Source of the DNA: Alphaproteobacteria bacterium
GTDB lineage: Bacteria; Pseudomonadota; Alphaproteobacteria; Bin65
Direction of reading: 5' to 3'
Length of the DNA: 34,625 bases
Assembly (NCBI GenBank): GCA_021776685.1
Contig: JAJFFJ010000150.1
Location: forward strand, 1 to 34,625
In this document: positions 4,771 to 14,122 of the stretch, one piece after another
How positions within the stretch are numbered: position 1 is the stretch's first letter
Layout of the letters: every line of letters starts with the position of its first letter
Program-made: the position numbers and the translations under genes
Notes under the pieces: model-generated
The model's database searches: none
The model's input: only the letters and a program-made list of their open reading frames with translations
What the model was told of the DNA's origin: nothing

Positions 4771-5844
4771 CTAATAGGCCACGTAGCTGCGGTGTACCCA
4801 GCGGTCTTTGCCGCCAATCCGGGTTTCAGAAAAAATGCTCTTCTTGCTGCGCCGGAGCGCGACATCGACATTGCCCCGGCGGCGCACCTTCACCTTGCCG
4901 CCCTGGCGGGCCTTCTCCATGAAACCGCGCACAGCAGCCTTGTTGAGATGCTTGAAGGACGTCTTTTTTTGTTCGGCAATCGCCTCGGTCGCGGCAGCGT
5001 GCAACAGCTTCGGCCACAATTTGCGGAACAGCACCGGGTGTGCGTAGACATCCGCTGTGCTGACCTTGCCATTGATGACGACCACGACGCCGACAATGCC
5101 GGCGCCCTTCGGGAGTTTCGCCGCAAGGGCAGACTGATAGCCCTTGATCGAGCGGCCTAGTGCCTTGTTCTCCAGCGAAAGTTGCAGGCTGGTCCGGGAG
5201 GCCTTGGAGCGCACATCCGACTTTACGTTCTTCTCCAATTTCTTCTGAAGCTGCGCCACACCGCGCCAGACCCGGTCCTGGGTGGAGCCGCCGCGATGTA
5301 GCTGGACCCTGTGTTGTCCGCGATGCCGTCCGCCATGCCGCTGCAGTCGGGTATCCCTCGGCGCCGCGCCATAGAGGGCGATCTTCAACTTTCGGGAGGG
5401 CAACGCGGTCTTGGCGCTGGTGAATTGTTTGTCCGACTCCTTGCCACGCCGGGCCCAGCGCCCCCGCTCCACACAGTAGGCGCCAATCGGCACCAGCCCG
5501 GATTTGGGCGGCAGGATGAGATCGCTGGTGATGACACGGTCCTGCCGGCCACCCTTCAGGATGTCGCCGGCCTGGATGAAGATTTGTTTGTTGCTGAGAT
5601 TCTCCACCTTCAGCCGGCGCACATTGCCGGTTTCATGAACGCGGACCAGCTTGCGCTCCATTGCCTCCTGCAATGTGATCAACTTGCCAGCGGCTGCCTG
5701 GGTGTCGCCCCGCACGAACCATACGGTCAGATTCTTGTGGGTGAATGGGCCTGATAGGCCCTTGGGTCCGGTGTCAGCCTGCGCGGGTGATTGCGCCGCG
5801 ACCAGTGCCAGCGTCACGGCGCCGACGATCAAACGTCCTGTCAT
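4771..5844 (-). CDS. Secreted ARPP-1-domain-like protein
   Basis: A 357-residue exported protein. The start ATG 5842-5844 is chosen because it opens a classic signal peptide (MTGRLIVGAVTLALVAA, probable cleavage after AQA at about residue 23) and has GAGAGGGA upstream; a longer reading from 5946 only adds unlikely residues. The mature N-terminus resembles the ARPP-1 domain: TLQEAMERKLVRVHE, then LKVENLSNKQIFIQAGDIL, GGRQDRVITSDLILPP and PIGAYCVERGRW. The C-terminal half is basic and less conserved, with a VVVVING strand and a highly basic tail. The biochemical role of this domain is not established. The gene is followed by a 105-base gap before the crotonase gene. Confidence 0.75.
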   Translation of the reverse strand: MTGRLIVGAVTLALVAAQSPAQADTGPKGLSGPFTHKNLTVWFVRGDTQAAAGKLITLQEAMERKLVRVHETGNVRRLKVENLSNKQIFIQAGDILKGGRQDRVITSDLILPPKSGLVPIGAYCVERGRWARRGKESDKQFTSAKTALPSRKLKIALYGAAPRDTRLQRHGGRHRGQHRVQLHRGGSTQDRVWRGVAQLQKKLEKNVKSDVRSKASRTSLQLSLENKALGRSIKGYQSALAAKLPKGAGIVGVVVVINGKVSTADVYAHPVLFRKLWPKLLHAAATEAIAEQKKTSFKHLNKAAVRGFMEKARQGGKVKVRRRGNVDVALRRSKKSIFSETRIGGKDRWVHRSYVAY

Positions 5845-6088: not shown

Positions 6089-6664
6089 ATGAACCTGTTC
6101 GCAAATAAATCCGTTTTGGGCGTTCTTTCCACCGCCGCTCTGGGCGCAGGCCTTGCTGCCGCGCCGGTCGCGGTCAACACCGCGTCGGCGGTGATCGTGG
6201 GCTCACCCAACATGCAGCAATATTGCAATCGGTATCATGCCCCCAGCGGGGCAATTTGGGCACAGCGGCGGAATCGCTGGGAATGCGCCAAAATTACAGG
6301 GCGCTTCAGCCGGCTCTATTATCGGGTCAACTATGCGCTCGCCTGCCGGACGACCCATGGCACACTTCGGTATCGCGCCTTTGGCAATCGTGTGCTGTGC
6401 GACCGGGTCGCGACCACCCGTGGGGGCGGTTTCAACACCCGCCGTCTGGTCTCGCCGGACCTGCGCAGATTCTGCTTGCGCAGCTATCGCACCACACGAG
6501 TGAACTTTGACTACCGCCGCAACCGGTTTGTCTGCTCGGTCCGCCGCGGGTACAGCCAGGTGCACTACATCATCAACATGCGCTCGGCCTGCTACTACAC
6601 GCGCAACACCACCCGCGTGACCTATCTGGGCGGCAGTGCTCGCCAGCCGCGCTGCGTCATCTAG
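6089..6664 (+). CDS. Secreted protein with eight evenly spaced cysteines, unrecognised family
   Basis: A 191-residue exported protein with a signal peptide (hydrophobic stretch residues 8-28, likely cleavage near ASA at 34). I do not recognise the family. The mature part has eight cysteines at residues 46, 66, 86, 104, 129, 149, 168 and 189, spaced about 20 apart. The sequence looks like two copies of a roughly 65-residue module: compare YCNRYH...RRNRWEC...YYRVNYALAC with FCLRSY...RRNRFVC...HYIINMRSAC. Each copy contains two C-x(17-20)-C loops. It is rich in Arg and Tyr. The start ATG 6089 has CAGGAG nine bases upstream. The gene stands alone and ends in a good terminator, so it is probably a single-gene transcript. 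Confidence 0.8.
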   Translation: MNLFANKSVLGVLSTAALGAGLAAAPVAVNTASAVIVGSPNMQQYCNRYHAPSGAIWAQRRNRWECAKITGRFSRLYYRVNYALACRTTHGTLRYRAFGNRVLCDRVATTRGGGFNTRRLVSPDLRRFCLRSYRTTRVNFDYRRNRFVCSVRRGYSQVHYIINMRSACYYTRNTTRVTYLGGSARQPRCVI

Positions 6665-9915: not shown

Positions 9916-10035
9916 TTTGCCGGGCATGTTGCGGGGAAGAACGGACTGTAGTATCCGCCCCTGTGAGCGCGGTGCGACACACAAGCTGACGCACGCCCGA
10001 CTCCGTCAACAACAAACTACGGTATGCTGCCAGCC

Positions 10036-10818
10036 ATGGCTGATACGGAAAAGACCGAATACACCGCCTGCCTGATCGTCATCGGCAACGAGATCCTGTC
10101 CGGGCGCACACGTGATGCGAACCTCCAGTATCTGGCTGAAAAGCTAAATGCCTGGGGCATTCAGATGCGCGAGGCGCGGGTGATCCCCGATGTGGAACAG
10201 ACGATCATCGATGCGGTTCACGAATGCCGGGTGAAGTATGACTATATCTTCACGACCGGCGGCATCGGGCCCACCCACGACGACATTACGGCGGCCACCA
10301 TCGCCAAGGCCTTTGGCCGCGAGCTGGCGCTCGATCAGGAAACCTATGACCGGATGGCGTCACATTATTTTGCCAACAACATGGGTGACTTCAACGCGGC
10401 CCGGCAAAAGATGTGCTACGTGCCGGAAGGCTCGACGCTGATTGGCAACAGCATCTCCATCGCGCCCGGCTTCCAGGTGGAGAATGTGTTTGTGCTTGCC
10501 GGCGTGCCGTCAATCATGCGCGCCATGGTCGATACGCTGCAGAACCGCCTCGTGGGCGGCAAGCCGGTGCAAAGCCGCTCCCTCAACATGTTTATGGGCG
10601 AAGGTGCGGTCGCAGAGGGGCTGACCAGCCTGCAGGCCGCGTATCCAGAAGTTGATATGGGGAGCTATCCTTTCTACCGCGACGGCCGGTTCGGTACGAG
10701 CTTGGTCATTCGCGCCGCGGACGAAGCGAAGTTGGAAGCGGCTGCGGACGACCTTGCGGCGTTGGCCAATTCCCTGGACGCCGAGTGGCACTGGGCGGCC
10801 GAAGAGGGTGAGCCATAA
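10036..10818 (+). CDS. CinA-like molybdopterin-binding-fold protein
   Basis: A 260-residue protein with the MoCF (MoaB/MogA-like) domain found at the N-terminus of CinA. Diagnostic sequence: IVIGNEILSGRTRDANLQYLA and TTGGIGPTHDDITAATIAKAFG. The C-terminal CinA nicotinamide-nucleotide deamidase domain is absent, as in the short single-domain family. Function is uncertain (possibly ADP-ribose or nucleotide hydrolysis, by analogy with CinA). Start: ATG 10036 is preferred; ATG 10024 adds four residues. Neither has a Shine-Dalgarno. TATGCT at 10023-10028 lies seven bases before ATG 10036, so a leaderless mRNA is possible. The stop overlaps the next start (TAATG). Confidence 0.9.
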   Translation: MADTEKTEYTACLIVIGNEILSGRTRDANLQYLAEKLNAWGIQMREARVIPDVEQTIIDAVHECRVKYDYIFTTGGIGPTHDDITAATIAKAFGRELALDQETYDRMASHYFANNMGDFNAARQKMCYVPEGSTLIGNSISIAPGFQVENVFVLAGVPSIMRAMVDTLQNRLVGGKPVQSRSLNMFMGEGAVAEGLTSLQAAYPEVDMGSYPFYRDGRFGTSLVIRAADEAKLEAAADDLAALANSLDAEWHWAAEEGEP

Positions 10819-12815: not shown

Positions 12816-12854
12816 GCCCGCTTGGTGGAACTGGTAGACACACAAGACTTAAAA
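12816..12854 (+). pseudogene. 5' half of a split host tRNA-Leu(UAA) gene
   Basis: Begins with acceptor strand GCCCGCT, then the D-arm (TGGTGGAACTGGTAGAC), anticodon stem CAAGA (12843-12847) and loop CTTAAAA (anticodon TAA at 12850-12852). The match to a tRNA stops exactly at the end of the anticodon loop. The matching 3' half lies 1.2 kb away at 14077-14122. Joined, they give a perfectly paired 85-nt tRNA including CCA, with no decay in either half, so the interruption looks recent. Confidence 0.88.
12845..12854 (+). repeat. Left 10-bp direct repeat (attL-like core)
   Basis: AGACTTAAAA, identical to 14067-14076. It consists of the 3' end of the anticodon stem and the whole anticodon loop of the split tRNA. 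Tyrosine recombinases commonly cross over in tRNA anticodon loops. Confidence 0.75.
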
Positions 12855-13007
12855 CTTTTCGTAATTCGTCCCAAGCTTAGGATGCCCCAGAAATCCTGCG
12901 TTTTAAGCGTTAGATACACAAGACTAATTGGTGGACTGGTTGAGTCCCAATATTGAGAAACCTTTTCCGGGTGTTGCAGCACCGTTTTCGCGTGTTGGGA
13001 AATGCCG

Positions 13008-13036
13008 TTGGGCGCAATAGATGGTGTTGATATACA
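13008..13036 (+). promoter_or_regulatory. Promoter for the insert-borne tRNA-Leu and DUF4393 gene
   Basis: TTGGGC at 13008-13013 and TATACA at 13031-13036 are separated by the ideal 17 bases. Transcription would start near 13043, about 14 bases before the tRNA. The insert therefore does not depend on the host tRNA promoter. Confidence 0.5.
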
Positions 13037-13056
13037 ATTCAAATCAATACCGTTCC

Positions 13057-13141
13057 GCGGGCGTGGCGAAATCGGTATACGCAGCGGACTTAAAATCCGT
13101 TCTCTTTGGAGTTGGGGGTTCGAGTCCCCCCGCCCGCACCA
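13057..13141 (+). tRNA. tRNA-Leu(UAA), intact, inside the insert
   Basis: The acceptor GCGGGCG pairs with CGCCCGC (13131-13137), followed by A73 and an encoded CCA (13139-13141). Anticodon stem GCGGA/TCCGT (one G-U) with loop CTTAAAA; anticodon TAA at 13091-13093. The variable arm of about 13 bases is class II, typical of Leu. T-arm GGGGG/CCCCC with TTCGAGT. It differs clearly in sequence from the split host tRNA-Leu(UAA) but has the same length (85) and anticodon, so it is a foreign replacement rather than a duplication. Confidence 0.95.
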
Positions 13142-13156
13142 ACTGATGGGCAAAGT

Positions 13157-13960
13157 ATGGCTGACAAAGAAAAAGATTCTGAGGAAGAGACAGTAGCGCT
13201 GCGCGCGCTAGGACCCGGGGCAGATGAATTCGCCGACGCGTCGAAAGGAACTGGAGCCTCCCTCGGTCGTACAGCATTAACAATCGCTCGAACACTAGAA
13301 GAGGTTGTACATTCTCCAAGGCTAATTATCATTGGGTATAAAAAGATTAAGGAAAAATTGCTACCACTATTAGATCGCAAACTTGAAGATGTTCCAGAAG
13401 ATAATATTCAGATGCCCTCAATATCAATTGCTGGCCCGACGCTAGAAGCCTTACGGTTTTCTATCGATGACGACGATATTACCGATCTATTTGCAGGATT
13501 ACTTGCATCATCGATGAATAAGAAATCTGCGAAATTTACCCACCCGTCGTTCGTGACAATAATCCAACAGCTGTGCCCTGATGAAGCAAAAATCATTAAA
13601 TATTTATCTGGAAAAGCGGACTATCCATTGTTAGAAATTAGAATGGCTAAAGATGGATATAAAATAATTGAACAAAATTTTACTGATATAAATAGTCAAA
13701 TTGATTTAGATATTCCAGAATTAGCTTCTTCATATATTGATAATTTATCAAGACTTGAAATAATTACGACGTCGGTTGATATTTATATAAATGATGCAAA
13801 AGTGTATGAAAATGTAACTAGTTTGGCGAACAAAAAATATGAATACTTTGCTAAAGATATGCCTAATGACCTGGAGGGTTACAAACTTGATTTAAAGAGA
13901 GGTATGATCCGTATTAGCAATTTTGGGCGAAATTTCATTAACTGCTGCGTTTCTATATAA
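13157..13960 (+). CDS. DUF4393 (Abi-alpha type) protein, candidate phage-defence gene
   Basis: A 267-residue protein starting ATG 13157 (MADKEKDSEE), 15 bases after the tRNA CCA end. The conserved DUF4393 block is clear: PSISIAGPTLEAL (residues 87-99), then DDDDITDLFAGLLASSM (104-120) and THPSFVTIIQQLCPDEAKII (128-147). Pfam, as I recall, groups this family as Abi_alpha, putative abortive-infection proteins; the mechanism is unknown. There is no signal peptide; a weak hydrophobic patch (RLIIIGY) is near residue 58. No good Shine-Dalgarno is seen, so translation may depend on tRNA processing creating a short leader. Composition shifts from near host-like at the 5' end to very AT-rich in the 3' two thirds, which suggests foreign origin. 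Confidence 0.8.
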   Translation: MADKEKDSEEETVALRALGPGADEFADASKGTGASLGRTALTIARTLEEVVHSPRLIIIGYKKIKEKLLPLLDRKLEDVPEDNIQMPSISIAGPTLEALRFSIDDDDITDLFAGLLASSMNKKSAKFTHPSFVTIIQQLCPDEAKIIKYLSGKADYPLLEIRMAKDGYKIIEQNFTDINSQIDLDIPELASSYIDNLSRLEIITTSVDIYINDAKVYENVTSLANKKYEYFAKDMPNDLEGYKLDLKRGMIRISNFGRNFINCCVSI

Positions 13961-13975
13961 ATTCTGGCTATAGAT

Positions 13976-14017
13976 TGCTGCAATATGTGCTGCAGGAATT
14001 CTGCAGCATTTGCAGCA
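13976..14017 (+). repeat. Nested TGCTGCA inverted repeats / hairpin at the right end of the insert
   Basis: Outer arms TGCTGCAA (13976-13983) and TTGCAGCA (14010-14017); inner arms TGCTGCAG (13988-13995) and CTGCAGCA (14001-14008) with a 5-base loop. All arm pairs are perfect. It begins 15 bases after the DUF4393 stop. It could terminate or stabilise that transcript (only a weak TTGTTT follows), or serve as a recombinase-binding array. Confidence 0.6.
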
Positions 14018-14066
14018 TTGTTTGAGAAATGTATGGGAAGTACTGGGGAGAAGTGCAGGTCCAATT

Positions 14067-14076
14067 AGACTTAAAA
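14067..14076 (+). repeat. Right 10-bp direct repeat (attR-like core)
   Basis: AGACTTAAAA, identical to 12845-12854; the flanking bases differ on the insert side (T14066 against A12844). It forms the anticodon loop of the right tRNA half. Confidence 0.75.
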
Positions 14077-14122
14077 TCTTGGGCTTTCGGGCGTGCGAGT
14101 TCGAGTCTCGCAGCGGGCACCA
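14077..14122 (+). pseudogene. 3' half of the split host tRNA-Leu(UAA) gene
   Basis: Contains anticodon stem TCTTG (pairs with CAAGA of the left half), the class II variable arm, T-arm GCGAG/CTCGC around TTCGAGT, acceptor AGCGGGC (14112-14118, pairs with GCCCGCT), A73 and CCA (14120-14122). Every stem with the left half is perfect. It has no promoter-like sequence directly in front and cannot form a tRNA alone. The following 147 bases up to ccmD hold no gene I can support. Confidence 0.88.

Follow-up and report, generated by a model that had tools for sequence, protein, structure and literature searches.

The principle of breaking a host tRNA and bringing a replacement is already known, so far mainly from phages and prophages. 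Guerrero-Bustamante and Hatfull reported that a mycobacteriophage integrase with a core of ~10 bp destroys the host tRNA and that lysogeny depends on a phage-borne tRNA of matching isotype; a Lactobacillus prophage was cited as a likely further case of this "tRNA-dependent lysogeny" (PMC10865867). In Sinorhizobium meliloti, a tRNA inactivated by the integration of phage-related sequences is reported to be replaced by an element-borne isoacceptor resembling the tRNAs of other species (PMC11476347). In Sinorhizobium, tRNA-Leu(UAA) is one prophage site, and the tRNA is rebuilt there (PMC12429752). Classical tRNA islands use a fragment that they carry to rebuild the target, and a single displaced fragment remains (Islander; PMC4383910).

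In the present study, we analysed a window (the whole stretch of 34,625 nucleotides) in which a host tRNA-Leu(UAA), here called X, is split at its anticodon by an insert carrying a second, complete tRNA-Leu(UAA), here called Y. The features of the locus, with their evidence in brackets, are as follows.

10024-10818, + strand: MoCF_biosynth/FLAD1-type gene, marker of the ancestral tRNA-Leu(UAA) locus (Pfam PF00994, 2e-31; PF24102)
12816-12854, + strand: 5' half of the host tRNA-Leu(UAA), X5 (joined with 14077-14122, an ARAGORN tRNA-Leu(UAA) of 85 nt)
12845-12854, + strand: left copy of the 10-bp core repeat AGACTTAAAA, in the anticodon loop (sequence)
12855-13056, + strand: non-coding left end of the element, holding TAGATACACAAGACT and TTGCAGCACCGTTT; putative attP arm
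13057-13141, + strand: complete replacement tRNA-Leu(UAA), Y (ARAGORN; Rfam RF00005, 62.8 bits)
13157-13960, + strand: Abi_alpha (DUF4393) abortive-infection-type gene, 267 aa (PF14337, 8.1e-50; PADLOC PDC-S47, 3.9e-48; spacing)
13961-14066, + strand: non-coding right end of the element, with TGCTGCA/TGCAGCA repeats at 13974-14016; putative attP arm
14067-14076, + strand: right copy of the 10-bp core repeat AGACTTAAAA (sequence)
14077-14122, + strand: 3' half of the host tRNA-Leu(UAA), X3 (sequence; ARAGORN call of the joined halves)

Among the closest known systems are the actinobacteriophages Fionnbharth, Gabriela and Gaia (PMC10865867), which share with the window a core of ~10 bp within an otherwise single-copy host tRNA gene, a tRNA that is not rebuilt at attL or attR, and an element-borne tRNA of the same isotype that compensates. 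Thus, the short core, the unrebuilt tRNA and the carried same-isotype tRNA of tRNA-dependent lysogeny were all found in the window, whereas an encoded integrase and a temperate phage genome were not. The phages are temperate, have their own integrase and use tRNA-Lys(TTT) or tRNA-Leu(CAA), whereas the element in the window is a 1.2-kb non-phage insert without an integrase at tRNA-Leu(UAA). It also differs from them in carrying one defence gene directly behind the tRNA and in having integrase-bearing relatives with group I introns in Y. The S. meliloti cases likewise come from Alphaproteobacteria, but they are phage-related sequences of 3.2-89 kb, and the portion of that report considered here describes no minimal defence cassette (PMC11476347). 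Classical islands have in common with the window the tRNA target, the anticodon-loop crossover subsite and the direct end repeats, but in the window both junctions are broken (PMC4383910). The tRNA-Thr locus of Caldiarchaeum is similar in its tRNA fragment, 1.8-kb recombinase-coding insertion and intron-containing tRNA; it differs in being archaeal, in its other kind of intron and in having no defence gene (PMC3293823).

A preliminary description of this DNA had reported two halves of one tRNA-Leu(UAA), 1222 bp between 10-bp repeats and a different, complete tRNA-Leu(UAA) between the halves. Our results agreed with these observations to the exact coordinate. The insert including one repeat copy spans 12855-14076 (1222 bp), and AGACTTAAAA comprises the anticodon loop plus two to three adjoining bases. 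ARAGORN accepted the joined halves as an 85-nt tRNA-Leu(UAA); when the window was searched with ARAGORN and Rfam, neither half was called alone, no tRNA was called at either junction, and Y was the only tRNA detected at the split locus. The G+C content was 41% in the insert versus 62% in the remainder of the contig. Both insert junctions were broken and the X halves joined only with each other, which ruled out a conventional island with a restored target. Within the left end, TAGATACACAAGACT at 12911-12925 agreed in 14 of 15 bases with the part of the host 5' half that immediately precedes the anticodon and is possibly an older att remnant, and TTGCAGCACCGTTT at 12974-12987 was 86% like 14010-14023. 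A candidate terminal inverted repeat (12920-12931/14061-14072) was rejected, as by our own estimate it was at about the chance expectation for 12 nt with one mismatch.

We then examined the leucine tRNAs of the genome, a draft assembly of 4.54 Mb in 158 contigs with 98.9% completeness. The remaining tRNA-Leu genes read CAA, UAG, CAG and GAG, and a pattern search for the UAA anticodon loop plus T arm returned only Y, the orphan X3 and one non-tRNA match. These results suggested that Y is likely the sole intact UAA-reading tRNA-Leu in the draft genome. The split, the presence of Y and the lack of a second intact UAA copy in the draft together supported the earlier proposal that the target is broken and compensated by a whole replacement tRNA. 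To place Y, we compared it with the tRNAs of two similar elements described below (G318 and G130). The three Y tRNAs were 80-90% identical among themselves and 71-79% identical to the three X tRNAs, indicating that Y belongs to the element and travels with it and is not host-derived. Two signature patterns searched against IMG/VR as a test for a viral source of Y gave no match, and phage matches to Y were moderate only. The motif GGTATACGC was dropped as an element-specific Y signature, since it is also present in several of the tRNA-Leu(UAA) genes that are native to the MoCF locus.

The MoCF-domain gene lies 2 kb upstream of the split tRNA. A survey with the MoCF-gene alignment showed an intact tRNA-Leu(UAA) beside this gene in many alphaproteobacteria; by our own count, an ARAGORN-intact tRNA-Leu(UAA) was within reach in 27 of 80 MoCF loci. 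In the family of the window, six genomes (G004 and G006 to G010) had intact tRNAs of the same acceptor type (GCCCGCT), and the MoCF gene adjoined the intact tRNA in G006, G007 and G008. The intact tRNAs of the same type, with the MoCF gene alongside, indicated that the split copy is the native host gene. In the nearest family genomes the intact tRNAs were at most 82% identical. No empty site was found for the genus of the window, which is represented in the genome set by its own genome alone.

Abi_alpha is the only clear gene of the insert. The profile matches covered most of the protein (residues 66-264 for PF14337 and 23-265 for PDC-S47), suggesting that Abi_alpha is a candidate anti-phage defence gene. 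It is rare, with matches in 2/385 sampled genomes of the class, the own genome counted. The start codon lies 15 nt past the CCA of Y, and a further in-frame ATG is at 13145. Because the start is only 15 nt after this CCA, Abi_alpha is probably read from the tRNA promoter and would be co-transcribed with Y.

The same split-plus-replacement pattern occurred in other genomes, including the complete genomes G318 and G130, which belong to one other alphaproteobacterial genus. Both have the order X5, non-coding stretch, Y, one gene and X3, with the following elements.

G318 (locus L270): X5 at 5062, Y at 5348, X3 at 6309; 1219 bp, 11-bp repeat; cargo DUF4145/PD-T7-4
G130 (locus L271): 1109 bp, 17-bp repeat; cargo HEPN_AbiV

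The G318 cargo matched DUF4145 (PF13643) and PADLOC PD-T7-4 (3.2e-11), and the G130 cargo matched HEPN_AbiV (PF18728, 2.6e-13) and PADLOC AbiV. The gap from the CCA to the start codon was 15 nt in the window, 15 nt in G318 and 13 nt in G130. A pattern search of the two complete genomes found the UAA loop plus T arm only in Y and in the orphan X3. The congener G233 has an empty site, in which the tRNA is identical over 89/89 nt to the joined halves of G318 and to those of G130, and the flanks of G233 align across the insertion point of both elements. The three minimal elements were found partly via the Y-type sequence, so that other types may be missed and their number is no measure of frequency; the first tRNA 5'-half pattern, with which G318 and G130 were found, detected GAAA-type genes only.

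Two side observations concern this group. Approximately 600 bp downstream of the first 3' half in G130, past a P-loop kinase ORF, there is a second, partial 3' half (L271, 6338-6384); the kinase ORF is native flank in G233, and the arrangement is a trace of another insertion. In G074 (L096, 1944-2797), a 151-aa ORF that weakly matches RTasHEPN (0.002) lies between an orphan 5' half and an intact tRNA-Leu(UAA); here the gene precedes the tRNA, and no 3' half was seen.

Integrase-bearing sister islands were also detected. G395, of the same genus as G318 and G130, carries X5, a 393-aa tyrosine recombinase and a tRNA-Leu(UAA) interrupted at its anticodon, with X3 on another contig. The recombinase matched PF13102 (6e-6) and PF00589 (2.5e-4, below the curated cut-off). 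Relatives of this recombinase (53-80% identity) lie between X5 and an interrupted tRNA-Leu(UAA) in G019, G109, G390 and G333, and a decayed form of the layout is present in G124. A group I intron reached the Rfam threshold in Y of G019 and G109 and in the related loci L173, L333 and L165; in the remaining integrase genomes, the interruption of Y was judged from the alignment of its halves only. The distance from X5 to X3 was 20.4 kb in G109 and 27.6 kb in G019, and the joined halves gave good tRNAs. The joined X of G019 showed 100% identity to the uninterrupted tRNA at the empty site of its congener G152. The G109 island carries type I restriction-modification and AbiEi genes, and the G019 island carries a short Argonaute with a SIR2 partner, PDC-S46 and a caspase-type protein. 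The integrase of the G395 type had no match in the phage collection. The same layout in other genomes and the two empty sites identical to joined halves exclude in practice a chance origin of the split-plus-replacement arrangement. An uninterrupted tRNA, for which the preliminary description had suggested a search of close relatives, was thus found for the sister elements (G233 and G152), but not for the genus of the window.

Several further loci were observed. Relatives of the G395 integrase adjoin intact tRNA-Met(CAT) or tRNA-Arg(ACG) genes (L326 3685-5403 in G019, L327, L328, L329, L335 and L332); at L326, the integrase lies between two tRNA-Met genes. At the left junction of the G019 island (L098, 6551-6625), the host 5' half runs on into degenerate remains of a T arm and an acceptor end, as though attP had once included a 3' half, which degenerated when the whole tRNA had replaced it. 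In G392 (L173, 12034-14229, JAGVLO010000002.1), an orphan tRNA-Leu(UAA) 5' half is followed 158 bp later by a tRNA-Leu(UAA) with a group I intron, beyond which lie a fragment of a serine recombinase (PF07508) and a RepB/ParB gene (PF07506). The stretches read showed no 3' half, and they contain a TGTTGC pair resembling that of the minimal elements. In G391, a tRNA-Leu(UAA) 5' half is broken directly after ACTTAAAA at a contig end (L120, 10754-10797), and an intact tRNA whose 5' half is identical to this broken copy lies beside phage-like genes (L211, 8511-8597), perhaps reflecting an element that restores the tRNA gene from its own 5' half. G215 has an intact tRNA-Leu(UAA) and, 1.6 kb off, an extra identical 5' part, which flank a 432-aa ORF, with CCAGCACAAGACCAGCACA repeated (L246, 6511-8259). 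Within 8 kb of G066 (L097, 2638-10754), a 3' half without a partner accompanies three tRNA-Leu(UAA) genes, apparently conventional islands stacked at one tRNA.

Paired motifs on both sides of the core are typical of the arm sites of lambda-type integrases. The G318 and G130 elements have the paired motif TGTTGCnGCnnnTGYTGC at both ends, and the pair was found in 0 of 20,000 shuffles of these ends. Genome-wide, both best matches of the TGTTGC motif in G318 and the only perfect match in G130 fall within the element. The examined ends of the integrase elements in G395, G109, G019 and G333 have CTTACACA pairs instead. Both the TGTTGC and the CTTACACA pairs look like integrase arm sites. At the ends of the element in the window, the TGTTGC motif was absent within 2 mismatches; these ends carry TGCAGCA/TGCTGCA repeats, which have a looser likeness to it. 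The insert holds no integrase, its sole gene being Abi_alpha. A search for a helper by the arm motif in the genome of the window named no candidate, and the motif with 2 mismatches was no commoner there than the control. Since no integrase related to that of G395 was found in this genome, G318 or G130, we infer a recombinase acting in trans.

Collectively, these results suggested, with a probability of roughly 0.85, that the insert is an integrase-less satellite that entered the only tRNA-Leu(UAA) gene of its host by site-specific recombination at the anticodon loop and brought its own tRNA and a candidate defence gene. In the proposed mechanism, a tyrosine recombinase supplied in trans would join the short core of the element to the anticodon loop. 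As attP would share only ~10 bp with the target, neither junction would rebuild the tRNA, and the carried Y would keep UUA codons readable after the host gene is destroyed at both junctions. Abi_alpha would be expressed with Y, so that an essential tRNA and a defence gene would travel together. A carried half-tRNA must match the other half of the host tRNA, whereas a whole tRNA would need the invariant loop only; an element with a whole replacement tRNA would therefore need no match to the host tRNA beyond the loop, and transfer between distant hosts may be possible. Precise recombination at the 10-bp repeats would restore X, with the insert lost harmlessly, and the predicted circular attP of the excised element would read ...GGTCCAATT-AGACTTAAAA-CTTTTCG.... 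Imprecise loss or decay of Y would be costly, and the dependence may thus act as a lock against imprecise deletion; decay of the X halves, as in G124, would make it permanent. In the integrase islands, the replacement tRNA would no longer contain the recombination site, as its anticodon loop would be interrupted by the intron.

The insert could instead be a remnant of a larger integrase island of the G109/G019 kind, with the integrase and most of the cargo deleted. Integrase islands with the same X5-Y-X3 logic do exist, and the lack of a related integrase in all three genomes with minimal elements would fit such deletions. We nevertheless consider this origin unlikely: the three minimal elements are alike in size (1109-1222 bp), gene order, single abortive-infection gene and 13-15 nt spacing, their Y tRNAs are without the intron of the integrase islands, and their end motifs differ (TGTTGC versus CTTACACA). 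A threefold convergence of deletion relics is hardly to be expected. Slightly less probable still is that Y serves chiefly to make loss of the insert lethal. The preliminary description had leaned this way in calling the arrangement an addiction without a toxin, and Y is the only intact UAA reader found; phage mutants without the compensating tRNA gave inviable lysogens (PMC10865867). The addiction idea holds in part, in that an imprecise loss would be harmful. A strict addiction module is too strong a reading, because exact recombination between the 10-bp repeats would give back the host tRNA, the X halves of six genomes can still be joined into a good tRNA, and the lock would act on imprecise deletion only.

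Two further readings were considered. If the foreign tRNA had arrived first, its redundancy would have made a later, unrelated disruption of X neutral. This is very improbable, as every clear case has Y within the insertion, and relatives with an empty site have X there but lack Y. Group I introns do occur at this loop in the tRNA-Leu(UAA) of related loci, which raises the question of whether the insert is itself a group I or II intron spliced from a split tRNA transcript. We regard the chance of this as negligible: Rfam gave no intron match in the window and no RF00028 match in the insert, and a 10-bp direct repeat and a complete inner tRNA are not intron features. The satellite with its own tRNA and candidate defence gene remains the preferred reading.

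While the split and the replacement had been recognized in the preliminary description, the candidate defence gene of the insert and the family of similar elements had been missed. Our search of open-access papers gave no integrase-less 1.2-kb cassettes of this kind, no single abortive-infection genes directly behind a replacement tRNA and no intron-bearing replacement tRNAs. What is new here is the minimal cassette, which is not a phage and has one defence gene following its tRNA, together with the replacement tRNAs that are interrupted by introns. A broader proposal seems to us about as likely as not: that mobile defence cassettes of Alphaproteobacteria, minimal and lacking an integrase, form a family of their own, each composed of arms, a whole tRNA-Leu(UAA) and one interchangeable abortive-infection gene behind it. 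In such a family, the tRNA would be entry ticket, promoter and anti-deletion lock, and the integrase islands would shield Y from re-targeting by the group I intron.

These elements extend tRNA-dependent integration from temperate phages to tiny non-phage cassettes with a single defence gene, and also to islands of 20-28 kb with restriction-modification, AbiE or Argonaute-type genes. Island finders that expect a rebuilt tRNA and a single displaced fragment would overlook them. A simple search signature for new defence genes would be a foreign tRNA enclosed by the two orphan halves of another tRNA with the same anticodon. The fusion of tRNA to gene suggests, in testable form, how a defence gene could be driven by an essential promoter. 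Finally, the supply of a whole tRNA, with the need for an invariant anticodon loop only, could explain the spread of such elements among distant hosts.
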